Virus record (IMG/VR): IMGVR_UViG_3300042376_001191
Coordinates: 1-28,835 of that record
Source of the DNA: a virus
Reading direction: 5' to 3' (one strand)
DNA: 28,835 bases
Made by a program: the position numbers and the translations under genes. The notes beneath the pieces were generated by a model. The model saw only the letters and a program-made list of their open reading frames with translations, made no database searches and had not been told where the DNA came from. Position 1 is the stretch's first letter, and every line of letters begins with the position of its first letter. Below are positions 4,603 to 28,835 of the stretch, piece by piece.

Positions 4603-4751
4603 AGCTGGGCCTCCTGGGTGAGAATGAACTCCTCCGCGAACCAGTCGCCCATGCCCAGCTCCGCCATCGGGTGCCCGTCCGCGATGTACCGCGCCGCCGC
4701 TTCCCGCTGCTCGCGCTGGGCGGTGGCTATGGGGTTGTCAGTCGATTGCAT
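4599..4751 (-). CDS. small acidic hypothetical protein
   Basis: A 50-aa protein starting MQSTDNPIATAQREQREA; mainly helical with an acidic C-terminal half (MGDWFAEEFILTQEAQL). The ATG at 4751 overlaps the end of the upstream methyltransferase gene by 14 bp, and the stop overlaps the next start as ATGA. Function is unknown. Confidence 0.6.
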   Translation of the reverse strand: MQSTDNPIATAQREQREAAARYIADGHPMAELGMGDWFAEEFILTQEAQL

Positions 4752-5730
4752 CGAATAACCCTCCCTGCGCGCCGGCATATGCCTCCGCGCTCTCCAGGTG
4801 CTTGATGGCCGTCGAAAAATACCCCGGCTTGAGTTCGATGCCAATGAACTTGCGGCCCTCGTCCAGCGCGGCAAACCCCTCCGAGCCAACACCGGCGAAC
4901 GGCGATAGCACGACGTCGCCCGGCGAGGACCACAGTTCCAGGCACCGGCGAATCAACCCGAGCTGCAGCGGGCAGATATGCTTCTCGTCCTTTTCGTCGC
5001 GGGCGATGCGGAAGTTCAGCACGTCCGTCTGATCGATGTCCCACCACACCGGCTCCGCGTACCGCCGCCAAATCTCCACGCTCGTCCGTCCGTCGCGACC
5101 CTTGCGCGCGTATTTCGACGGGTGTTGGTCAGTCTCGCGCGGGTCGAGCTCCAGATCGCCGATGTATCGCTCGAACCCGTTCGGCCGCTCGATTGGCTTT
5201 GTGCTGAGATTGTCACCGGGCGGCGTCTTGCGGAACGCCAGCACGTAGTCAGCCATGCCCTGCCGGATCTGCGAGGAGTCGCGCATCACGGTTTTATGGA
5301 GTAGCCCGTTGTTATTGGTCCGTTCCCGCTCCGTCACCGGGCACTTCCACACCGTAACGCGGCTATGGAACGTCCACCCGGCGCGCTCCATAGCGGCGAT
5401 GCACTGGCCTGGAAAGTCCCGCAATCCGCTCGCCCCGTCGCTGTTCCGGTACGTCGGCAGGTCTTTGACGTGCATCACACACAACCGGCCCGTCGTCGTC
5501 ACGCGAAGCAGTTCCGGCGCGAGGAATCCGAAGTGCGCAAAGAACTCCTCATCGCTTGCGCAGTTGCCCATATCGGCCTCGGAATCCGAGTAGGTGTACA
5601 GGCTGGAGAACGGCGGAGAAAACACCGTCAGGTCTACTGACTCGTCGGGTATACCCTTGATGACTTCGCAGCAGTCGCCGTTGTAGAGCGCCCAGTTGCG
5701 GCCGTGCCGCTCGTCTAAAATCACGTTCAT
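4738..5730 (-). CDS. DNA methyltransferase, N4-cytosine/N6-adenine type
   Basis: A 330-aa protein with the catalytic motif SPPF at residues 38-41 and, near the C-terminus (from about 276), SPFAGVGSEGFAAL followed by GRKFIGIELKPGY, the AdoMet-binding motif I. Motif IV before motif I is the beta-class order. SPPF rather than DPPY points to N4-cytosine methylation, but N6-adenine is possible. The ATG at 5730 has GAGGTGG upstream and shares a base with the helicase stop (TAATG). Likely role: protecting phage DNA from host restriction. Confidence 0.88.
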   Translation of the reverse strand: MNVILDERHGRNWALYNGDCCEVIKGIPDESVDLTVFSPPFSSLYTYSDSEADMGNCASDEEFFAHFGFLAPELLRVTTTGRLCVMHVKDLPTYRNSDGASGLRDFPGQCIAAMERAGWTFHSRVTVWKCPVTERERTNNNGLLHKTVMRDSSQIRQGMADYVLAFRKTPPGDNLSTKPIERPNGFERYIGDLELDPRETDQHPSKYARKGRDGRTSVEIWRRYAEPVWWDIDQTDVLNFRIARDEKDEKHICPLQLGLIRRCLELWSSPGDVVLSPFAGVGSEGFAALDEGRKFIGIELKPGYFSTAIKHLESAEAYAGAQGGLFDAID

Positions 5731-7100
5731 TAGATCCACCTCGGAAGATTCATTTGCTTCGTGCCAACGGCTGAAGCAAGCTGACGCCGCCCGGTACCGT
5801 TTTGAATTGCCGCCATCGCATGAACCATGGCCGCTTTCATTTCTTCATGCTTCTTCTGCTTCTCGCGAATGGTCTTTAGGACCGGGCCCTCTGTTTCCGC
5901 GATGACCATGTAGGCATCAACCGGCCGCGTTTGGCCGAAGCGCCACGACCGACGCACTGCCTGATAAAACTGTTCGTAGGAGTAGGACAGCCCGCAAAAG
6001 ATATGCTTATTGCAGTGCTGCCAGTTCATGCCAAACCCCGCGATTGATGGCTTCGTGACGATGCGCTGGAACGCGCCGTGCGTGAACCCAAGTAGCTTTT
6101 CTTCCTTCGCCTCCGTCCGCTCGTCGCCGCGGACTTCCACTGCGCCGTCGATCACCCGCATAAGTTCGTCGGCTTCGTAGTTGGTGTTGCACCAGATACA
6201 CCACGGCTCTTTCGAGTCGCCGATGATCTCGGCAACGCGCGCTGCCCTCGCCGGCGCCGTAAGCCGCATCTCCCGATGTAGGCCTGTTGCCGAAACGTCC
6301 GCCACCCGGAACAGTTGACCGTTGGCGTTGATGGATTGATCGACGGCGACGATCTCCTCATGGATATTCAACGCGGGCATATTCCATCCGTCATCGGAAA
6401 ACCCAAGGTCTGACGGTTTCTCCATGCACACCGACCACGACGCCACCCACCGCCAGTAATCAGCCTCAGCGTGGCCCTTTAGCCGGTAGCCGCCCGCCTT
6501 CATCGTGTCGTTTAGAAACCACCGCATCAGCATTTGCCCGCCGCTCATGATGTCCAGGAACTCAGAGTGGTTGCCGAGCTCCATGTGGTCATTGGGAGAC
6601 GGAGTAGCCGAGCAACAGAGCTTGTATGGCGTGCTGGCAAACGAGTCTTGCAGTAGCCTCCGCGTGGCCCCGGTGAAGTTCTTGAGGATGCTCGACTCGT
6701 CCAAAACAACGGCGTCGAAGTGGCCCGCGTCGAAGTGCGTCAGCATGTCGTAGTTGGCGACATTGACGCCCCGGCGCACGTCCTTCTGGCTTCGGCACTG
6801 CGTTATTTCTACGCCGAACTTCGCGCCCTCTGCTACGGTTTGCGCCGTCACTGCTAGTGGTGCCAGAATCAGCGCGTCGCCGCCAGTATGTTGGCAGACC
6901 TGCCGCGCCCATTCCGCTTGCATTGCCGTCTTGCCGCTCCCGCACTCTGTGAACAGCGCGAACTTGCCAGCGTTCAACGCCCGCGTGATGCTTTGCCGCT
7001 GGAAGCCGAATAGCTTGCCGTTCAGGTCGAACTCTCCGGTAATCCCGGATGGTTGCGGCTGCACGTGCTTGCCGTCGAGAAACGCCCGGTATCCGCTCAT
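5730..7100 (-). CDS. SNF2/DEAD-box-type helicase
   Basis: A 456-aa superfamily 2 ATPase. Walker A-like ECGSGKT is at residues 52-58, the DExx box is DESS at 134-137, SATPSPND (motif III) is at 164-171, and QAVRRSWRFGQTRPV near residue 390 is the motif VI typical of SWI2/SNF2 proteins. Such phage enzymes translocate on double-stranded DNA in replication or recombination. ATGA overlap with the zinc-ribbon gene upstream and TAATG with the methyltransferase downstream suggest coordinated production of the three. Confidence 0.9.
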   Translation of the reverse strand: MSGYRAFLDGKHVQPQPSGITGEFDLNGKLFGFQRQSITRALNAGKFALFTECGSGKTAMQAEWARQVCQHTGGDALILAPLAVTAQTVAEGAKFGVEITQCRSQKDVRRGVNVANYDMLTHFDAGHFDAVVLDESSILKNFTGATRRLLQDSFASTPYKLCCSATPSPNDHMELGNHSEFLDIMSGGQMLMRWFLNDTMKAGGYRLKGHAEADYWRWVASWSVCMEKPSDLGFSDDGWNMPALNIHEEIVAVDQSINANGQLFRVADVSATGLHREMRLTAPARAARVAEIIGDSKEPWCIWCNTNYEADELMRVIDGAVEVRGDERTEAKEEKLLGFTHGAFQRIVTKPSIAGFGMNWQHCNKHIFCGLSYSYEQFYQAVRRSWRFGQTRPVDAYMVIAETEGPVLKTIREKQKKHEEMKAAMVHAMAAIQNGTGRRQLASAVGTKQMNLPRWI

Positions 7101-7735
7101 ACCCGCACCCCCACCCGCCGCGCACACACCGAGTCAATCCACGCCGACCGCGCCGGGTCATCGTTCACCCGATCCTGCGCCAGCGCTTCCGCCCGCGTCA
7201 TCGGCGGACGATACTCGCCCGTATTCATCGGCGCCTGAACGGCGTGCGTTGCCATCGGGTAACTGTTGCCCAGCATCGTCCGCATGGTTGCGGCTCCCCT
7301 GCGCCCGGCTTCCGTGCGTGCCTTTGTTGCGCACTTTGCGCACATCTTGGCGTAACGGCGCTTTTGCTCGATCTGGCCGCCACAGCCGCACCAGCGGATC
7401 TCCTTACGTTCAGCGCGCGTTGTCTTGCGGCATAGAGCACAGCGGGCGTAACGCATATCGCTCTGTAGCAGCACGGACCCGCACGCACAGCGCTTGTCTG
7501 CCCGGCACGCTTTGCACGTTCCGCGCCGGCGCTCGGTCCATGTGAGCATCATGCGCTGACACTGCGTACATGGCACTGCGGCTTTAGCGCGTAGCGCGTC
7601 TCTTTTGACCGCTTGCCGCGCGTTACCGCATGGCTTGCAGATACTGTTGCGCGGCTGGAATTTATCAGCCAGCGTCGGTATAGGCGTACCACACCGCTTG
7701 CACGGATCGTGCGGCACCCATGGTTTGTTTCTCAT
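7097..7735 (-). CDS. Cys-rich multi-zinc-ribbon protein
   Basis: A 212-aa basic protein with a chain of Cys pairs: CKRC, CKPC, CTQC, CKAC, CACG, CALC, CGCG and CAKC in the first 140 residues, enough for about four zinc ribbons. The last 70 residues lack Cys. Multi-ribbon proteins of this kind often bind nucleic acid, and position before the helicase agrees, but no known family is assigned. The ATG at 7735 follows GGGAGCAA and a UGCCGAC-loop hairpin. Confidence 0.8.
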   Translation of the reverse strand: MRNKPWVPHDPCKRCGTPIPTLADKFQPRNSICKPCGNARQAVKRDALRAKAAVPCTQCQRMMLTWTERRRGTCKACRADKRCACGSVLLQSDMRYARCALCRKTTRAERKEIRWCGCGGQIEQKRRYAKMCAKCATKARTEAGRRGAATMRTMLGNSYPMATHAVQAPMNTGEYRPPMTRAEALAQDRVNDDPARSAWIDSVCARRVGVRV

Positions 7736-7774: not shown

Positions 7775-8776
7775 TTAGAATTTCAGCCCCGCGCGTTCAG
7801 CAAGGACTCTAAACGCATACGCACCCTGGAGTACCACCACGCCGTTTCCACCGGCGCGTAGTCGGTCCACCCTGGAGGCAGCGACATCAGCCAGTCCACG
7901 AAGTTCGGATTCAACCGCCGGCGCGAGGTCGGGGAAGTCGGCAAGGATTCGCTGCCATGCGGCGGCGTCTCCGGGGCCGGGTGGAAATAATCCGATGTCC
8001 GCGCCTGCTGATCCAACCCCATCTCGTTCTTCCGGTCCCCGCCCCGACATCGGAAGCTGTCCGTAGCTGGCGTCTGCCACCACGCCGCCTGCTCGTTCAG
8101 GTCGATGGTCCAGCCCTGCTCCAACTTCCGCTGCGTCCGTGGTGAGTCCGGCGTTGACGGGTTGTGGTCGTCCCGGCAATTCGGCGTAGCCCACTGCCGC
8201 GTCGCTCCCGTCAGCGAATCCACCGCCCCTGGATGGTTCCCGCAACTCTCCGAGTCCTCGCTTCTGGGCGTGGGCCAGGATGAACGCCCGGTCCCGTCGA
8301 TGCGGGGCGCCAACATCGGACGCTCGAATAGTTCCCCATTCCGCATCGAACCCGAGCGTGGCAAGTTCTCCGAGTACGGTTCCTCCTGTTGGAAAAGCGA
8401 GAACTGGCGGGACGTTTTCAATAAAGACCCATCGGGGCTGAACTTCGCGAATGATTCGCACGTACTCGAAATACAGTCCGCTGGCGGCTCCGTCGAGCCC
8501 GACTTGTCTCCCGGCCACACTGAGGTCGGTGCATGGGAAGCCGCCAATGATTCCGTCCACTCGGCCATGCAACGGGCGGCCGTCGAAGGTTCCAATGTCG
8601 GACCAGATAGGAGCCTTACACAAGCTGCCGTCTTCCATACGCGCCGCCAGGATTGCTGCCGCTGGAGCTTCCCTCTCCACGAAACAGATAGTGCGAGCGA
8701 CTGGAACTGCGCATCGCACGGCAGCGTCGAGCATTCCAGCCCCGCTGAATAAACTGATGATGGTATGTGTAGCCAC
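7775..8776 (-). CDS. dcm: C5-cytosine DNA methyltransferase (Dcm type)
   Basis: A 333-aa protein with C5-methyltransferase motifs in order: FSGAGMLD (I, residues 10-17), GGFPCTDLS (IV, catalytic Cys near 82), ENVPP (VI, 120-124), RRDRAF (VIII, 160-165) and, near the C-terminus, RVDRLRAGGNGVV (IX/X). The region between VIII and IX is short and Gly-rich, so the target-recognition part is unusual. The start is a GTG inside GTGTGG, 10 nt after GGGAG. The gene lies fully over a second reading frame. Likely role: anti-restriction methylation. Confidence 0.85.
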   Translation of the reverse strand: MATHTIISLFSGAGMLDAAVRCAVPVARTICFVEREAPAAAILAARMEDGSLCKAPIWSDIGTFDGRPLHGRVDGIIGGFPCTDLSVAGRQVGLDGAASGLYFEYVRIIREVQPRWVFIENVPPVLAFPTGGTVLGELATLGFDAEWGTIRASDVGAPHRRDRAFILAHAQKRGLGELREPSRGGGFADGSDAAVGYAELPGRPQPVNAGLTTDAAEVGAGLDHRPERAGGVVADASYGQLPMSGRGPEERDGVGSAGADIGLFPPGPGDAAAWQRILADFPDLAPAVESELRGLADVAASRVDRLRAGGNGVVVLQGAYAFRVLAERAGLKF

Positions 8777-8778
8777 AC
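7783..8778 (-). CDS. second reading frame inside dcm (WPTP/LNPxFVxWLM protein)
   Basis: A 331-aa frame, open over almost the whole dcm gene. It starts at a GTG 2 bp upstream of the dcm GTG in the same GTGTGG, 8 nt after GGGAG. It carries features I recognise from phage methylase-associated proteins: SLLKTSRQFSLF, LPRSGSMRNGELFE, WPTPRSED, WATPNCRDD, WQTPATD and near the end RRLNPNFVDWLMSLPPGWTD. Chance would not be expected to give that ordered set. It may be a separate protein or the remains of a methylase C-terminal domain in another frame. Both frames look intact. Confidence 0.6.
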   Translation of the reverse strand: MWLHIPSSVYSAGLECSTLPCDAQFQSLALSVSWRGKLQRQQSWRRVWKTAACVRLLSGPTLEPSTAARCMAEWTESLAASHAPTSVWPGDKSGSTEPPADCISSTCESFAKFSPDGSLLKTSRQFSLFQQEEPYSENLPRSGSMRNGELFERPMLAPRIDGTGRSSWPTPRSEDSESCGNHPGAVDSLTGATRQWATPNCRDDHNPSTPDSPRTQRKLEQGWTIDLNEQAAWWQTPATDSFRCRGGDRKNEMGLDQQARTSDYFHPAPETPPHGSESLPTSPTSRRRLNPNFVDWLMSLPPGWTDYAPVETAWWYSRVRMRLESLLNARG

Positions 8779-8818
8779 CGTTCTTGCTCCCTCTCGTCCC
8801 CGTGTCGGCAAACCAGGG
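8779..8818 (-). promoter_or_regulatory. UGCCGAC-loop hairpin plus RBS (copy 3)
   Basis: Minus-strand stem CCCTG/CGGGG (one G-U pair; 8818-8798) with loop GTTTGCCGACA, followed by GAGAGGGAGCAAG before the overlapping GTG starts of dcm and its inner frame. It begins directly after the stop at 8819. This is the most divergent of the five copies. Confidence 0.55.
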
Positions 8819-23578: not shown

Positions 23579-23716
23579 ATGACCGTCAAGGAACTCATCG
23601 AAAGATTACAGGCGATGCCGCCCGATGCCCCGGTGTTTGTCGCGCAAGGTGAATACCCTGACGAGGAAGCTGTTGAAATAGTGTTACTCGGCGGTGAGAC
23701 AGTGGCGATCTATTAG
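23579..23716 (+). CDS. 45-aa conserved-type phage microprotein
   Basis: Starts MTVKELIERLQAMPPDAPVF and continues VAQGEYPDEEAVEIVLLGGE. The opening 'M-T-V-K-E-L-I-x-x-L-Q-x-[ML]-P-x-D-A-x-V' is a pattern seen in many small phage proteins of unknown function, which makes a chance frame unlikely. It runs opposite to its neighbours; its stop overlaps the stop of the giant fibre gene by 4 bp (convergent). Confidence 0.7.
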   Translation: MTVKELIERLQAMPPDAPVFVAQGEYPDEEAVEIVLLGGETVAIY

Positions 23717-26700
23717 CAGGTGCCGCCGGTCAGGATGCCGCCGCTGAAGATCAGCGTGCAGGTGCCGGTACCGGCGGAGTCGCGCACGGTCTTTGTCGAC
23801 GTGATGCCCGCGGAACCGGACGGGGTGGTGATGGTCCCGGAGATGTTGACGTTCGTGGTAGCAACGGTGGACCAGCGGAAGGATGTATTCCCAAGCGCGT
23901 AAAAGTTGTTGGTCGTTGGGACGAGCGTGCCGGATAGCGATGTGCCGGAACTCAATGCGATATCCCCGTCAATATCGACATGAAAGGTCGAGACCTTGCC
24001 CCACCGGTACGTGTTGGACCCGCTTACGTATGCGCCAGTCGTAGTGGGGAGCACGTCGCCAGTGATGCTGCCTCCCAGGGTCACAGTGCCAGACGCATTC
24101 AGATCGATGGCGTAGATCGTGCTGGGGCGAAAGCTGGGATGGCCGAAGGTGTAGGCGTTATTTGAATCTGGAACGAGATTACCGCCGGCTGATATATCCC
24201 AGCGGACGACGTTGTTAGTCTTGAAATACACGGGGAAGTTGTCGGAAGTCCCAAGTATCGCGGCCGTTCCGAATGAATTTCCGGATTGAACGTAGCAGGT
24301 TGGGCACGCGGCCGCAGCTTGCCATGAACCAGCGCCGCCCGTGGATGTCGCGGTCCAGACATAGCCTACGGTCGTGGTATCGGTAAGGATGAAGCCAGAG
24401 GCAGAGAAGTAGCCAGCCCCATACGAATAGCCAGAGTCGCCGATTGAGCCAGTTCCGCCGAATAGCGGCTTCATTGTGCCCGCCATCGTCCCGCTGTTGA
24501 AGCTGAACGTAGCCGAGCCAGTGGCGGCGATGCTTCCGAGGATCGTCACCGCTTGATTCTTGATCGTGATAGCGTCCTGATACGTTCCCGAGCCAGTTGC
24601 TGTTTGGATGGCAAATTTCTCATCTGTGAATGCTGCCGACTCGTACCCAGAGCACACCCGCGCGGCTCCATAGATAGTGCTGGTGACGGTATCGGTAGAG
24701 GCAAGCACAAGGCACGCCGGATCATAAAACCCGCTGTTGTTGGTCTGCGATAAGGTGAGCTGGTTCTGGACGCTAGCGATAGCCACCGTTTGCGGATTGA
24801 CGAAGGTCTGATTGATGTTGAGCCCGGCGAGCGTATGATCTCCGTCCTGCACTGTGAGCACGCGCGTCGTTCCGGTAGTCAGCCCGTCCACCTCAAACCG
24901 CACGATCTTGCTGGCGTCACTGGAGCCCTTTGCGATGCCGGTAGTATCGACGACAGGCAGCGATGAGCCGCCGCTGGCGGCCTGCCAGGAGCCGGCCCCG
25001 CCCGTACTCGTGGCCGTCCAGACGTGCCCAACCGTGGCCGCCCCCGTGTTGATCGTAAGCCCAACGGTGGAAAGTGTTCCGCTATAGTCACCATCGACAC
25101 TGTAGACATTCGACCAGCGCTTTGAGGAGTCGCCAAATTGCGCTCCGCCGTTTACTTTAGGCTCAATAATCGATGTGGCGGTTATGGAACCGACGAACAA
25201 CTCGTTCCACTCATTGCCAGTTGCGCCTATATCGCGCGTGCCAGATGGGACCACGTTTCCGGCTATTGTCACTTGTCCGCTGGAATTGATTTGCAGGTAG
25301 GAGACGTTGTTGGTTTCGAGGGATAGCGTTTGCGCGTCATTCGTGCCAATCGTCAGCATCGCTCCGGTGGTGTTTCCACCGTTGACGATACAAGTCGAAC
25401 ACGGCGCGGGGGCGGCCCATGAAGCATTTCCGCTTGCGTCTGAAGTCAGGATGTAGTTATTTGTTGCCCCCGTGCGAATGGTAATGGTGTTGGTGTCTAA
25501 AATACTTCCAAACACGTACGACCAGCGGTTTGACAGGTTCCCAATGGTTGGAAGTGTTCCGTCGTCCACAGCGTCACCGCCCGCAATGGTGCGGCCAGCT
25601 GGCAGCCAGTTGGCGTATACAAACGTGTCATTCGAAGGCAACGACGATAGCGCCCGATAGCCGCGAATCCAACGAGAGCCAGAGTTATCAAGGATGTTAA
25701 TGGACGATGTGCCAGTGGTGGCGTTGGCCGATAGATACCAAAAGCCAGTAGCGCCGCCTGTGTCGGCAAGTTGCAGCTTTCGCGTCTGCATGTAATCGCC
25801 GGTACCGCCAGCCAGCGCCGTGTCCACGATTTTGCTATACACCCCACGCACGCGAAGAGGCGTTGTTAGGTCGCCAATGTTGTAGGTGTCCGTAGCCATC
25901 GGCACATACATGCCCGCCGCCGTCCACTGCCACCGCGCCGCGGAGTCGGTGTAGATCGTGACAGGATGCAACGAGAACGCCCCCAGCCCAACGCCGCTGG
26001 ATAGACCGGCCCCTAAGCGCCCCGTGATGGTGCCGGAAAGGGAGTACAAGGAACCGTAGGAAATGAAATTTTTGTCTTTATCGAACGACGCGGCAATCGT
26101 CTGCCCGCTGTTGTTTTTAGATATCAACACATCGAAGCGCGGATAACGGTTGGCCGCGGTCGAATCCTCCCAGAGCACCTGCCAGCCGCCGGCAATAATG
26201 CCGGTTCCAGCGTCATCCTCCAGTGTCACGGCTTGCTGCACGCCGAAGCCGGTTGCGGTGGTGCCGGTCGAATGGCGCTCAATTGATCCCACCGACGCGG
26301 TGTTATTGGTGCCAGAATCTTTGAGGTACGTGCTGGACTGCACCCCGTCGCGGATCGTGCCCGACGTGCTAACACGCGTGGACGGAGCGCCTACTACCGC
26401 CGCCATGGTGGCCGTTGTGCCGCTTCCCCCGTTGAATCCCGTCGTGCAGGCCGTGCCGAGATCAACGCCCACGAACGTGATGTTCGTTCCCGCCGCCGCG
26501 TCTACAGCCGTGCCGCTGGTCGCGCAGGTAATCTCTCCCCCGTTGATCGCCACGCGGTCAGTGGATGCCCCGCTGATGGAGACGGCGGTGGAATAGTTGC
26601 GAATTTTGTTGCTGGTGACATTGGCGCCAATGGCGTTTGCCAGCTTGACTCCCTGTGTGCCCGCTTCGCCCGCGCCGTAAAACTCGTTATCACTGATTTG

Positions 26701-28335
26701 CGCTCCCGTGCTAGAGCCGTCCAGGTCGAGGTGTAGGCTGTATTTATGCGCTCGAAACGTGTTGCCTGAAATCTTGATATCCGGGCCCGCGTGGTCTGCG
26801 TAGATGCCCGTGTGGTCGTAGGTGACGCCCGACAGGTTCGCCATCCGATTGTCGAGTATGTCGAACTGGGCAAAGCGCGGCCCGGTCAGCTTGATGGCGG
26901 TGTATGCTTCGGCGTTGAAAAAGTTGCTAAATGAATTGTTGTGGATCTGCGCGCCAGCAAATGGCACCTTGCTATCGAACCAAACGCCCGTGCGGTTCTG
27001 ATTGTCGAAATTGTTCCCGTAGAAGTGGAATTGACCGGTCGATTGTCCCACCTTTGCGCCGGTCAGCGTGCCAAGGTTATCGGCAAGGGTGACATGGGTT
27101 GCGTCGGTATACGCTGCAATTGTCGTGAGATTGCCGTCCACGTAGACAGCCAATCCGACTTGTATCGGCCAGAAGCGGCCCGTGGTGGCGGTGGCGGCTG
27201 TGCCGGATACATTAACAGTGGCAAAAGCCAGATCGGCATAGAAGCTGTCCCGGCAACCAAGAAAGTAATTATTGGCAAATGTTGCCGCGCCTGGCGAGTG
27301 AAAAAACACGCCTTTAGAGTCGGTATCTGACGTGCAGACGAAGTTGTTTTCAAGCGCCGTCAATCCGCCTTGATCGGAGTTGATTTCGTTGGCCACCTCA
27401 AACCCAACGCGCGTAGAGTAGAACCGATTGCCGATCACATACAATTCCGTCGCGGTCCGGTGGTTGATGCCTACCGCGTGATTTTGCAAGAAATTGTCAA
27501 TAAAGCGGTCGGACCCACCGTTACTTACCAGCGCTTGCGCATAGATTCCCGTGGTGGTGGTGTCACCCACAATCGACATCCGTATCACGTCGAGCGTGTT
27601 GTTCGAGTTTTTGCAGATGCCTTGCTGGTTTGGCGTGGTTAGGTAGATTGCCGATCCGGTTCCCTGCCCCAAGAACGTCACGTTTTTGCCGTTAGTGCAG
27701 GCGCGCGTCTTCCACGACGGGTTACCGATGGGATACGAGAGCGTCACCGAGCTAGACGCCGCGTTGATTGCTTCCTGTGCACCGACGCTGCCGCTGGCAA
27801 TGGTCGTGGTGCCCGTGTGGCTGTTGGCCGTCGTGACTTCGATAGTGCAAGACGTTTGCCCGGTGCCGTCACAGGTGCCAGTGCCGGTCGATGTCACCGC
27901 CTCAGACGAGCCCGGCGTGCCAACGAGCCAATACTGGCTTGCAGTATCGGTCGCGATGACGCCCAGCGGTCCAGGGGTCAGTGTAATGGTGCGGGTACCA
28001 GCCGCGCCCGGAGCGGTGATGGTTTGAGACCAATCGTAGTCGCCAGGATTGACGTTACCGCCAGCTCCGCACGTGCTCCAACCCCACTGGCCAGCGCCGT
28101 CGGTCGAGAGGCATTGGTTGGCGGTGCCGTCGGCGGTGGGAAGCGTCCAGACGGTATTTGCCGCCACGGATTGCGGCGCCTTGATGCCGACGTAGTTTGT
28201 CCCGTTCGTGCGCCGCTCCTGCATCCGCAGTTCGCCCGTAGCGCTTCCGGCGCTTTGGGTGATGGTAAGAGGCGTCTGTGACTGCCCGAACGCCGCCAGG
28301 GCGGCCAGGGCGCAAAGGATGATGGGTTTATTCAT
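23713..28335 (-). CDS. giant beta-helix tail fibre/tailspike-like protein
   Basis: A 1540-aa protein. Residues 1-20 (MNKPIILCALAALAAFGQSQ) form a signal peptide. Residues 45-75 hold a common fibre phrase (ANTVWTLPTADGTANQCLS). Residues about 180-650 alternate short strands with Asn/Gly turns (LYVIGNRFYSTRVGFEVANE, AQIHNNSFSNFF, KISGNTFRAHKYS), the right-handed beta-helix pattern of pectate-lyase-like tailspikes. The last third is made of repeats with G-x-x-x-x-R-W-x-x-V and two nearly equal copies of WTATSTGGAGSWQAA. Likely binds or cuts surface polysaccharide. Its ATG overlaps the upstream stop by 8 bp. Confidence 0.85.
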   Translation of the reverse strand: MNKPIILCALAALAAFGQSQTPLTITQSAGSATGELRMQERRTNGTNYVGIKAPQSVAANTVWTLPTADGTANQCLSTDGAGQWGWSTCGAGGNVNPGDYDWSQTITAPGAAGTRTITLTPGPLGVIATDTASQYWLVGTPGSSEAVTSTGTGTCDGTGQTSCTIEVTTANSHTGTTTIASGSVGAQEAINAASSSVTLSYPIGNPSWKTRACTNGKNVTFLGQGTGSAIYLTTPNQQGICKNSNNTLDVIRMSIVGDTTTTGIYAQALVSNGGSDRFIDNFLQNHAVGINHRTATELYVIGNRFYSTRVGFEVANEINSDQGGLTALENNFVCTSDTDSKGVFFHSPGAATFANNYFLGCRDSFYADLAFATVNVSGTAATATTGRFWPIQVGLAVYVDGNLTTIAAYTDATHVTLADNLGTLTGAKVGQSTGQFHFYGNNFDNQNRTGVWFDSKVPFAGAQIHNNSFSNFFNAEAYTAIKLTGPRFAQFDILDNRMANLSGVTYDHTGIYADHAGPDIKISGNTFRAHKYSLHLDLDGSSTGAQISDNEFYGAGEAGTQGVKLANAIGANVTSNKIRNYSTAVSISGASTDRVAINGGEITCATSGTAVDAAAGTNITFVGVDLGTACTTGFNGGSGTTATMAAVVGAPSTRVSTSGTIRDGVQSSTYLKDSGTNNTASVGSIERHSTGTTATGFGVQQAVTLEDDAGTGIIAGGWQVLWEDSTAANRYPRFDVLISKNNSGQTIAASFDKDKNFISYGSLYSLSGTITGRLGAGLSSGVGLGAFSLHPVTIYTDSAARWQWTAAGMYVPMATDTYNIGDLTTPLRVRGVYSKIVDTALAGGTGDYMQTRKLQLADTGGATGFWYLSANATTGTSSINILDNSGSRWIRGYRALSSLPSNDTFVYANWLPAGRTIAGGDAVDDGTLPTIGNLSNRWSYVFGSILDTNTITIRTGATNNYILTSDASGNASWAAPAPCSTCIVNGGNTTGAMLTIGTNDAQTLSLETNNVSYLQINSSGQVTIAGNVVPSGTRDIGATGNEWNELFVGSITATSIIEPKVNGGAQFGDSSKRWSNVYSVDGDYSGTLSTVGLTINTGAATVGHVWTATSTGGAGSWQAASGGSSLPVVDTTGIAKGSSDASKIVRFEVDGLTTGTTRVLTVQDGDHTLAGLNINQTFVNPQTVAIASVQNQLTLSQTNNSGFYDPACLVLASTDTVTSTIYGAARVCSGYESAAFTDEKFAIQTATGSGTYQDAITIKNQAVTILGSIAATGSATFSFNSGTMAGTMKPLFGGTGSIGDSGYSYGAGYFSASGFILTDTTTVGYVWTATSTGGAGSWQAAAACPTCYVQSGNSFGTAAILGTSDNFPVYFKTNNVVRWDISAGGNLVPDSNNAYTFGHPSFRPSTIYAIDLNASGTVTLGGSITGDVLPTTTGAYVSGSNTYRWGKVSTFHVDIDGDIALSSGTSLSGTLVPTTNNFYALGNTSFRWSTVATTNVNISGTITTPSGSAGITSTKTVRDSAGTGTCTLIFSGGILTGGTC

Positions 28336-28835
28336 AGAGAACCGAATAGGGCGCGCATACCGCCCACCACTTGCCGTCGGCACGCCCGCGGAACTGGAAG
28401 CACGTCACCGAGCCATTTTTTCCAGGGAGCGTAGAGCCGAAATTTGTATTGAAATCGGAATCGAAGCTGATCGTGTACGGCCCAGCTCCCTGCGTCACGT
28501 AGACCGTCAGCAGGTCGGCCGCCGTGGGCGTATACGGGCTAGCGATGGTGGTATTGGCCGTCAGCGTAATTTCGATGGGCGTTGAACTGCCGCCAGTGCC
28601 GGTCGAGCCGCCGGCCACAAACGAGCCGGTGGCACCGCCGCCAGACGAGCCGCCCGCAATGGCCCTCCAGAACTCGACCGCGCCGCCCAGCCGGTTTGTG
28701 CTGATGGCTTTGACGGTGAACTGCAACCACTGCCCATAGACATCGCGAAGGGAAACTTCGCGGATCAAATATGTGCCGCTGGAGACGTTGAAGTAGCTAT
28801 TAGCGATGGTCTGAAGTTGCCCAGGCCGCAGCGTG
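28328..28835 (-). CDS. tail protein, truncated by the window edge
   Basis: The frame is open to the right edge, so only the last 168 residues are present. It begins TLRPGQLQTIANSYFNVSSG and has a flexible Gly/Ser linker (GGSSGGGATGSFVAGGSTGT) before a beta-rich end domain (ITLTANTTIASPYTPTAADL ... SVTCFQFRGRADGKWWAVC). That last domain resembles trimeric tail-fibre modules. An internal TTG at 28768 could be mistaken for a start. It is the gene directly before the giant fibre and probably a minor tail or hub-associated protein. Confidence 0.7.
   Translation of the reverse strand, partial: TLRPGQLQTIANSYFNVSSGTYLIREVSLRDVYGQWLQFTVKAISTNRLGGAVEFWRAIAGGSSGGGATGSFVAGGSTGTGGSSTPIEITLTANTTIASPYTPTAADLLTVYVTQGAGPYTISFDSDFNTNFGSTLPGKNGSVTCFQFRGRADGKWWAVCAPYSVLYE

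Follow-up and report, generated by a model that had tools for sequence, protein, structure and literature searches.

The minus strand of the window, by which we mean the whole 28,835-nt stretch of viral DNA analysed here, carries a gene of 63% GC in which two frames are open over almost the same nucleotides. The alpha frame encodes 333 residues from a GTG start at 8776-8774 to a TAA stop at 7777-7775. The beta frame, in +1 relative to alpha, encodes 331 residues from GTG 8778-8776 to a TGA stop at 7785-7783 and stays open upstream as far as TTG 8811. The two GTG codons overlap inside GTGTGG, with the starts 2 nt apart, and the third frame of the gene contains 8 stops. The features of the locus are:

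7775..8776, minus strand: alpha, the C5-cytosine methyltransferase frame with motifs I-VIII and X (PF00145, phrog_29583, phrog_363)
7783..8778, minus strand: beta, the second (+1) frame with the WPTP modules and motif IX (open frame, phrog_1008, homologs open in the same frame)
8774..8778, minus strand: overlapping start codons GTGTG, beta GTG 8778-8776 and alpha GTG 8776-8774 (sequence)
8787..8793, minus strand: Shine-Dalgarno-like GAGGGAG, common to both frames (read from the sequence)
8273..8758, minus strand: alpha-frame motifs I to VIII, ISLFSGAGML ... GGFPCTDLS ... FIENVP ... DVGAPHRRDRAFILA (invariant columns, wobble pattern in 68/68 pairs)
8266..8433, minus strand: conserved N-terminal segment of beta, DGSLLKTSRQ...PRSGSMRNGELFERPM...SSWPTP (alignment of homologs)
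8002..8277, minus strand: three beta-frame modules WPTP/WATP/WQTP with limits 8194-8277, 8080-8193 and 8002-8079, presumed target-recognition region (coordinates, second-frame wobble, hhalign to single-chain methylases)
7970..7990, minus strand: alpha-frame LFPPGPG, conserved start of the alpha C-terminal segment (conserved columns: F264 invariant; P266, G267 and P268 at 90% or more)
7861..7914, minus strand: beta-frame motif IX, LNPNFVDWLMSLPPGWTD (M.HhaI motif IX position via single-chain relatives; wobble bin Z02)
7811..7873, minus strand: alpha-frame motif X, RVDRLRAGGNGVVVLQGAYAF (invariant columns; methylase wobble, bin Z04)

The alpha frame matches PF00145 (E 5e-32) as well as phrog_29583 and phrog_363 and, with motifs I, IV (PC), VI (ENV) and VIII in one chain, meets the criterion for a C5-cytosine DNA methyltransferase. 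It does not meet that for a single-chain enzyme, in which motif IX lies between the recognition region and motif X of the same chain; where motif IX would be, alpha reads a EPELRGLADGLA-type sequence. Beta matches phrog_1008 (E 8e-23), a family labelled 'DNA methyltransferase' although the beta frame has no catalytic motifs. Beta had no match in Pfam or NCBIfam, its search in PDB and Pfam gave nothing usable, and the whole 28,835-nt window had no match in Rfam. The original prediction had placed here two same-strand frames open for about 1 kb, overlapping GTG starts in GTGTGG behind one ribosome-binding site, and WPTP, WATP and WQTP blocks together with LNPNFVDWLMSLPPGWTD in the second frame. 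All of this held: both frames lie exactly where they had been placed, and GAGGGAG is found at 8787-8793.

Homologs were sought by tblastn and pattern scans over phages, IMG/VR and GTDB genomes, which yielded several hundred candidate loci, the best of which were read. In the first ~20 diverged homologs the +1 frame is open across nearly the whole methylase gene, for up to 677 codons, and between 5 and 31 stops interrupt the third frame. In all 77 newly fetched viral loci found by methylase patterns only, no less than 93% of the gene is open in the second frame, and profiles of the second protein match at both its ends. This set (best 80 of 559 candidates) was not chosen on the second frame, although part of its seed alignment was built from dual-frame loci. 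Among loci found by a second-frame motif, and thus biased towards that frame, the same two features are present in 69/76 viral and 76/80 genomic cases, the hosts in the genome set including Alphaproteobacteria, Chloroflexi, Acidobacteria, Verrucomicrobia and Planctomycetes. Every beta-frame protein tested (60/60) matches phrog_1008. Dual-frame members include Salmonella phage S9-5, Acinetobacter phage ABMM1 and Pseudomonas phage phPA-G, and relatives of the S9-5 gene are present in 4 of 5,426 E. coli genomes. The annotated CDS is the second frame in Acidovorax phage Alfacinha3 and Synechococcus phage Ssp-JY39 and the methylase frame in Yong-M2-251. The layout explains such uneven annotation: records pick either frame, and the 'DNA methyltransferase' label is found on both. 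As a separate observation, one E. coli locus (L285 1501-2262, PCP07014) has been called a pseudogene because of an internal stop, and the same place carries a stop in both frames.

Selection keeps both frames open. For the gene of the window alone, synonymous shuffling produces a mean of 5.3 second-frame stops, and the probability of none is 0.001. The stop test was applied to 76 thinned genes (mean GC 63%), with codons shuffled synonymously in the opposing frame. Over motifs I-VIII, 2 second-frame stops were observed vs 130 expected when the methylase codons were shuffled, and in the region between motif VIII and FPPGP, hereafter T, 0 methylase-frame stops were observed vs 209 expected when the second-frame codons were shuffled. 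The result for T is partly by construction, since genes had to carry I-VIII and X in one ORF. Third-frame stops were 299 observed vs 389 expected and 309 vs 298. As a control, 22 single-frame relatives from the same collection have 66 +1 stops vs 78 expected over I-VIII and 48 vs 51 in T, and only 2/22 have the +1 frame open over I-VIII. Since these relatives show no avoidance, stop avoidance is a trait neither of the protein family at large nor of phage DNA rich in GC.

Substitutions tell which frame is constrained where. We compared 68 disjoint pairs of 78-97% nucleotide identity, which are not fully independent phylogenetically. Over I-VIII the differences gather at methylase position 3 in 68/68 pairs, whereas in T they gather at methylase position 1, the wobble position of the second frame, in 64/67. 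The synonymous fraction of codon differences is correspondingly 0.67 in the methylase frame vs 0.17 in the second frame over I-VIII, and 0.10 vs 0.66 in T. In the bin of motif IX (Z02) substitutions follow the second frame, with 68% at the beta wobble, and in that of motif X (Z04) the methylase pattern is found, with 80% at position 3. For the window gene's own comparisons in T, the second frame is clearly favoured against three homologs (L011, L017, L023) and hardly against a fourth (L015). The amino-acid constraint thus changes frame at motif VIII and returns before motif X. Over I-VIII (8273..8758) the beta frame reads as mostly open filler that seems constrained mainly to remain open. Both frames look constrained in bin N08, close to motif VIII; the beta segment 8266..8433, which overlaps alpha motifs VI-VIII and is seen too in the beta ORFs of split relatives, may be a double-constrained stretch, the wobble rate of N08 being the lowest among the N bins. 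Simultaneous constraint on both frames is mostly absent, and truly double-constrained stretches are short. GC by codon position is not decisive: position 1 is highest in T of 74/76 genes, as the beta wobble would predict, and is also highest in 60/76 genes over I-VIII and in 76/76 at the C end.

These data support the dual-coding interpretation of the original prediction with one correction, namely that constraint passes from alpha (I-VIII) to beta (recognition, IX) and back to alpha (X), mostly without being simultaneous. Two outcomes had been named that would refute it. Scattered second-frame stops in dcm homologs were looked for and not seen, and constraint in only one frame is contradicted by the codon-position substitutions. 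The arrangement had been called rare, which is right for genes in general; within this methylase clade dual open frames are the rule.

The start region is similarly arranged in homologs. An NTGTGG overlap is present in 45/76 diverse genes (25 ATGTG, 16 GTGTG, 4 TTGTG), many of the remaining genes have, for example, ATGACATGG or ATGGCTTGG with the methylase NTG 5 nt further on, and in the Salmonella/E. coli type the second start is 4 nt past the first. With starts this close or overlapping, a single ribosome-binding site could serve both frames.

In single-chain methylases, the counterpart homologous to beta is the recognition region together with motif IX. In hhalign comparisons with one single-chain relative, the alpha alignment covers residues 1-182 (probability 100, E 3e-56) and the beta alignment residues 219-319 (probability 97.7, E 2e-12), the latter stretch comprising the recognition region and motif IX. 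Motif IX of the single-chain form (FPEWMMGYPSGW) aligns with RVMGYPDSYK of M.HhaI just before GNSVV, at sub-significant scores (-1.3 to -3.6 bits); because this direct alignment is below significance, motif IX is assigned from its position and through the single-chain family. A predicted structure of a single-chain relative resembles M.HhaI over its length and matched M.HhaI and M.HaeIII. Its module region is modelled with low confidence and does not settle the role of the modules, and AlphaFold gave a poor model of beta alone (59 homologs, pLDDT 60, pTM 0.24). WPTP modules are missing from some single-chain relatives, so it is possible that they are not the whole recognition domain. Single-chain C5 methyltransferases of the mycobacteriophages Tweety (gp72), JoeyJr (gp71) and ShiLan (gp70) and of Gordonia phage Derg (gp4) have homologous motifs I-VIII, LPTP modules, a FPEWMMGWPAGWV motif IX and motif X. 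They differ from the locus described here in carrying everything in one frame, and the single-frame set as a whole is without second-frame stop avoidance.

Two-polypeptide C5 methyltransferases also offer a close comparison. M.EcoHK31I (YGGCCR) has motifs I-VIII and X on its larger subunit and motif IX on its smaller subunit (PMC3404938). In M.EcoHK31I the small ORF lies inside the large one, in a different frame. Alpha of the window has I-VIII and X, and motif IX lies on beta, in another frame of the alpha gene. The window differs in that its ORFs overlap almost end to end, with starts 2 nt apart, in that the region between VIII and IX is constrained in the beta frame whereas the recognition domain of M.EcoHK31I is assigned to alpha, and in that the arrangement is widespread, in hundreds of phages and prophages. 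By analogy, the window enzyme would work like M.EcoHK31I, without our claiming membership of that system. M.AquI (CYCGRG) has I-VIII on one chain and the distal recognition region and IX on another, a layout shared by 19 of our relatives, in which one ORF has I-VIII and the +1 ORF carries the recognition region, IX and X. The window departs from this type, whose second chain has both IX and X, in that its motif X is in the alpha frame; moreover, the window genes overlap almost completely. A published phage C5 methylase gene with a hidden coding frame differs in that the frame belongs to a homing endonuclease insert; the sections bearing on that insert report no second frame of the methylase itself, and we found no earlier description of the present overlapping arrangement in the open-access literature searched.

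Based on the above data, we propose that the locus likely encodes a two-polypeptide C5-cytosine methyltransferase, with I-VIII and X on alpha and the recognition region and IX on beta, although there are no expression, complex or activity data. Ribosomes at one Shine-Dalgarno site would start on either of the two overlapping NTG codons. The alpha frame would provide SAM binding and catalysis (I-VIII) plus motif X, and the +1 frame would give beta, with the WPTP-module region where target-recognition domains sit, plus motif IX. Each chain would read the other's coding part as open filler. Joined in a single enzyme, alpha and beta would then methylate the phage DNA, probably as protection from host restriction. 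Production of both chains, complex formation, activity and the setting of specificity by the WPTP modules are all inferred.

Several other readings must be weighed against this proposal. Alpha might be complete without beta, having a degenerate motif IX (EPELRGLADGLA) of its own, in which case beta would be a non-essential accessory that changes or adds specificity. Conservation of EPxLRGLADGLA, where IX would be, and of FPPGP in the alpha frame does suggest that alpha might be self-sufficient. However, EPxLRGLADGLA shadows LNPxFVEWLMGWP of the other frame, and it is beta that the substitutions at this place follow (bin Z02). Moreover, the alpha-frame reading of T is unconstrained filler: loci L236, L251 and L274 have several methylase-frame stops across T only, leaving I-VIII and X as separate ORFs and the second frame intact, and in L065 and L118 the methylase frame is also broken between VIII and X while the second frame is open. 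We thus regard a self-sufficient alpha as unlikely. Programmed frameshifting could instead yield one chain, reading the methylase frame to VIII, the +1 frame for the recognition region and IX, and the methylase frame again for X, which would match the domain order of single-chain relatives. Yet this requires two opposite shifts, it would not need alpha to be open across T or beta across I-VIII, both of which are kept stop-free, and the beta start is conserved; we give it very little weight.

We consider it even less probable that beta is an inhibitor, a toxin partner or an unrelated overprinted protein. All that speaks for this is that the frame is separate and conserved and has no Pfam family. 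Against it stand the match of beta to that part of single-chain methylases which holds the recognition region and IX, and the split relatives, whose second ORF has IX as well as X. Of the roles first suggested for the second product (partner, inhibitor or target-recognition piece), a target-recognition/motif IX subunit is therefore favoured and an inhibitor is without support. That the second frame is merely a non-coding shadow of a GC-rich methylase gene is all but excluded: 63% GC does raise the odds of long chance ORFs relative to AT-rich DNA, but the stop counts, the wobble switch and the single-frame controls contradict it. A shadow ORF and a relic of an old frameshift were also rejected because pairs of 90-97% identity still show second-frame constraint.

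Returning to the two-chain enzyme, a bolder reading, to which we give slightly less than even odds, is that of a widespread phage methyltransferase class with catalytic and recognition subunits in two frames behind one start site. In such a class small frame shifts would change the layout (one chain, two chains, full overlap or three pieces), and the frame could store or swap recognition modules. It is very unusual for two conserved genes to overlap almost completely on the same strand, and since this arrangement spans phages and bacteria of several phyla it constitutes a large natural data set on dual coding. If the proposal is correct, the locus illustrates how the parts of a single enzyme can be distributed over two frames that come under constraint in turn, and it provides natural examples of the split methyltransferases employed in targeted methylation (PMC3439449).

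Some further loci display unusual layouts. In the three-piece arrangement of L236, L251 and L274, the motif X ORF has a shared in-frame ATG (GMGDA/GMGNT) soon after a stop. In L093 and L227, three different frames hold, respectively, motifs I-VIII, motif X with the N half of the second frame, and motif IX, which is either a true layout or an assembly indel. In actinophage relatives (L276 1847-2245, L279 2676-3134, L304 2341-3612, L333 2341-3315) the LPTP array begins in the +1 frame; it then goes on in the methylase frame (Tweety, ShiLan), and L304 and L333 stay in +1 through IX and X. Possibly, small indels shift modules between frames in these arrays. The dual-frame methylase L023 (1842-3755; also L037) contains an insert throughout which the methylase frame is open and whose second-frame reading is LAGLIDADG endonuclease-like (YAAGLIDGEGCFGV; PF00961, E 0.003, under the curated cut-off); it is comparable to the out-of-frame HNH insert of mycobacteriophage ShiLan (PMC11855218). 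In the window itself, a second DNA methyltransferase (phrog_67, 4738-5739) and a helicase (phrog_62, 5730-7127), both on the minus strand, lie just downstream of the alpha/beta gene, and a 1556-aa ORF at 23713-28383 on the same strand has no PHROG match.
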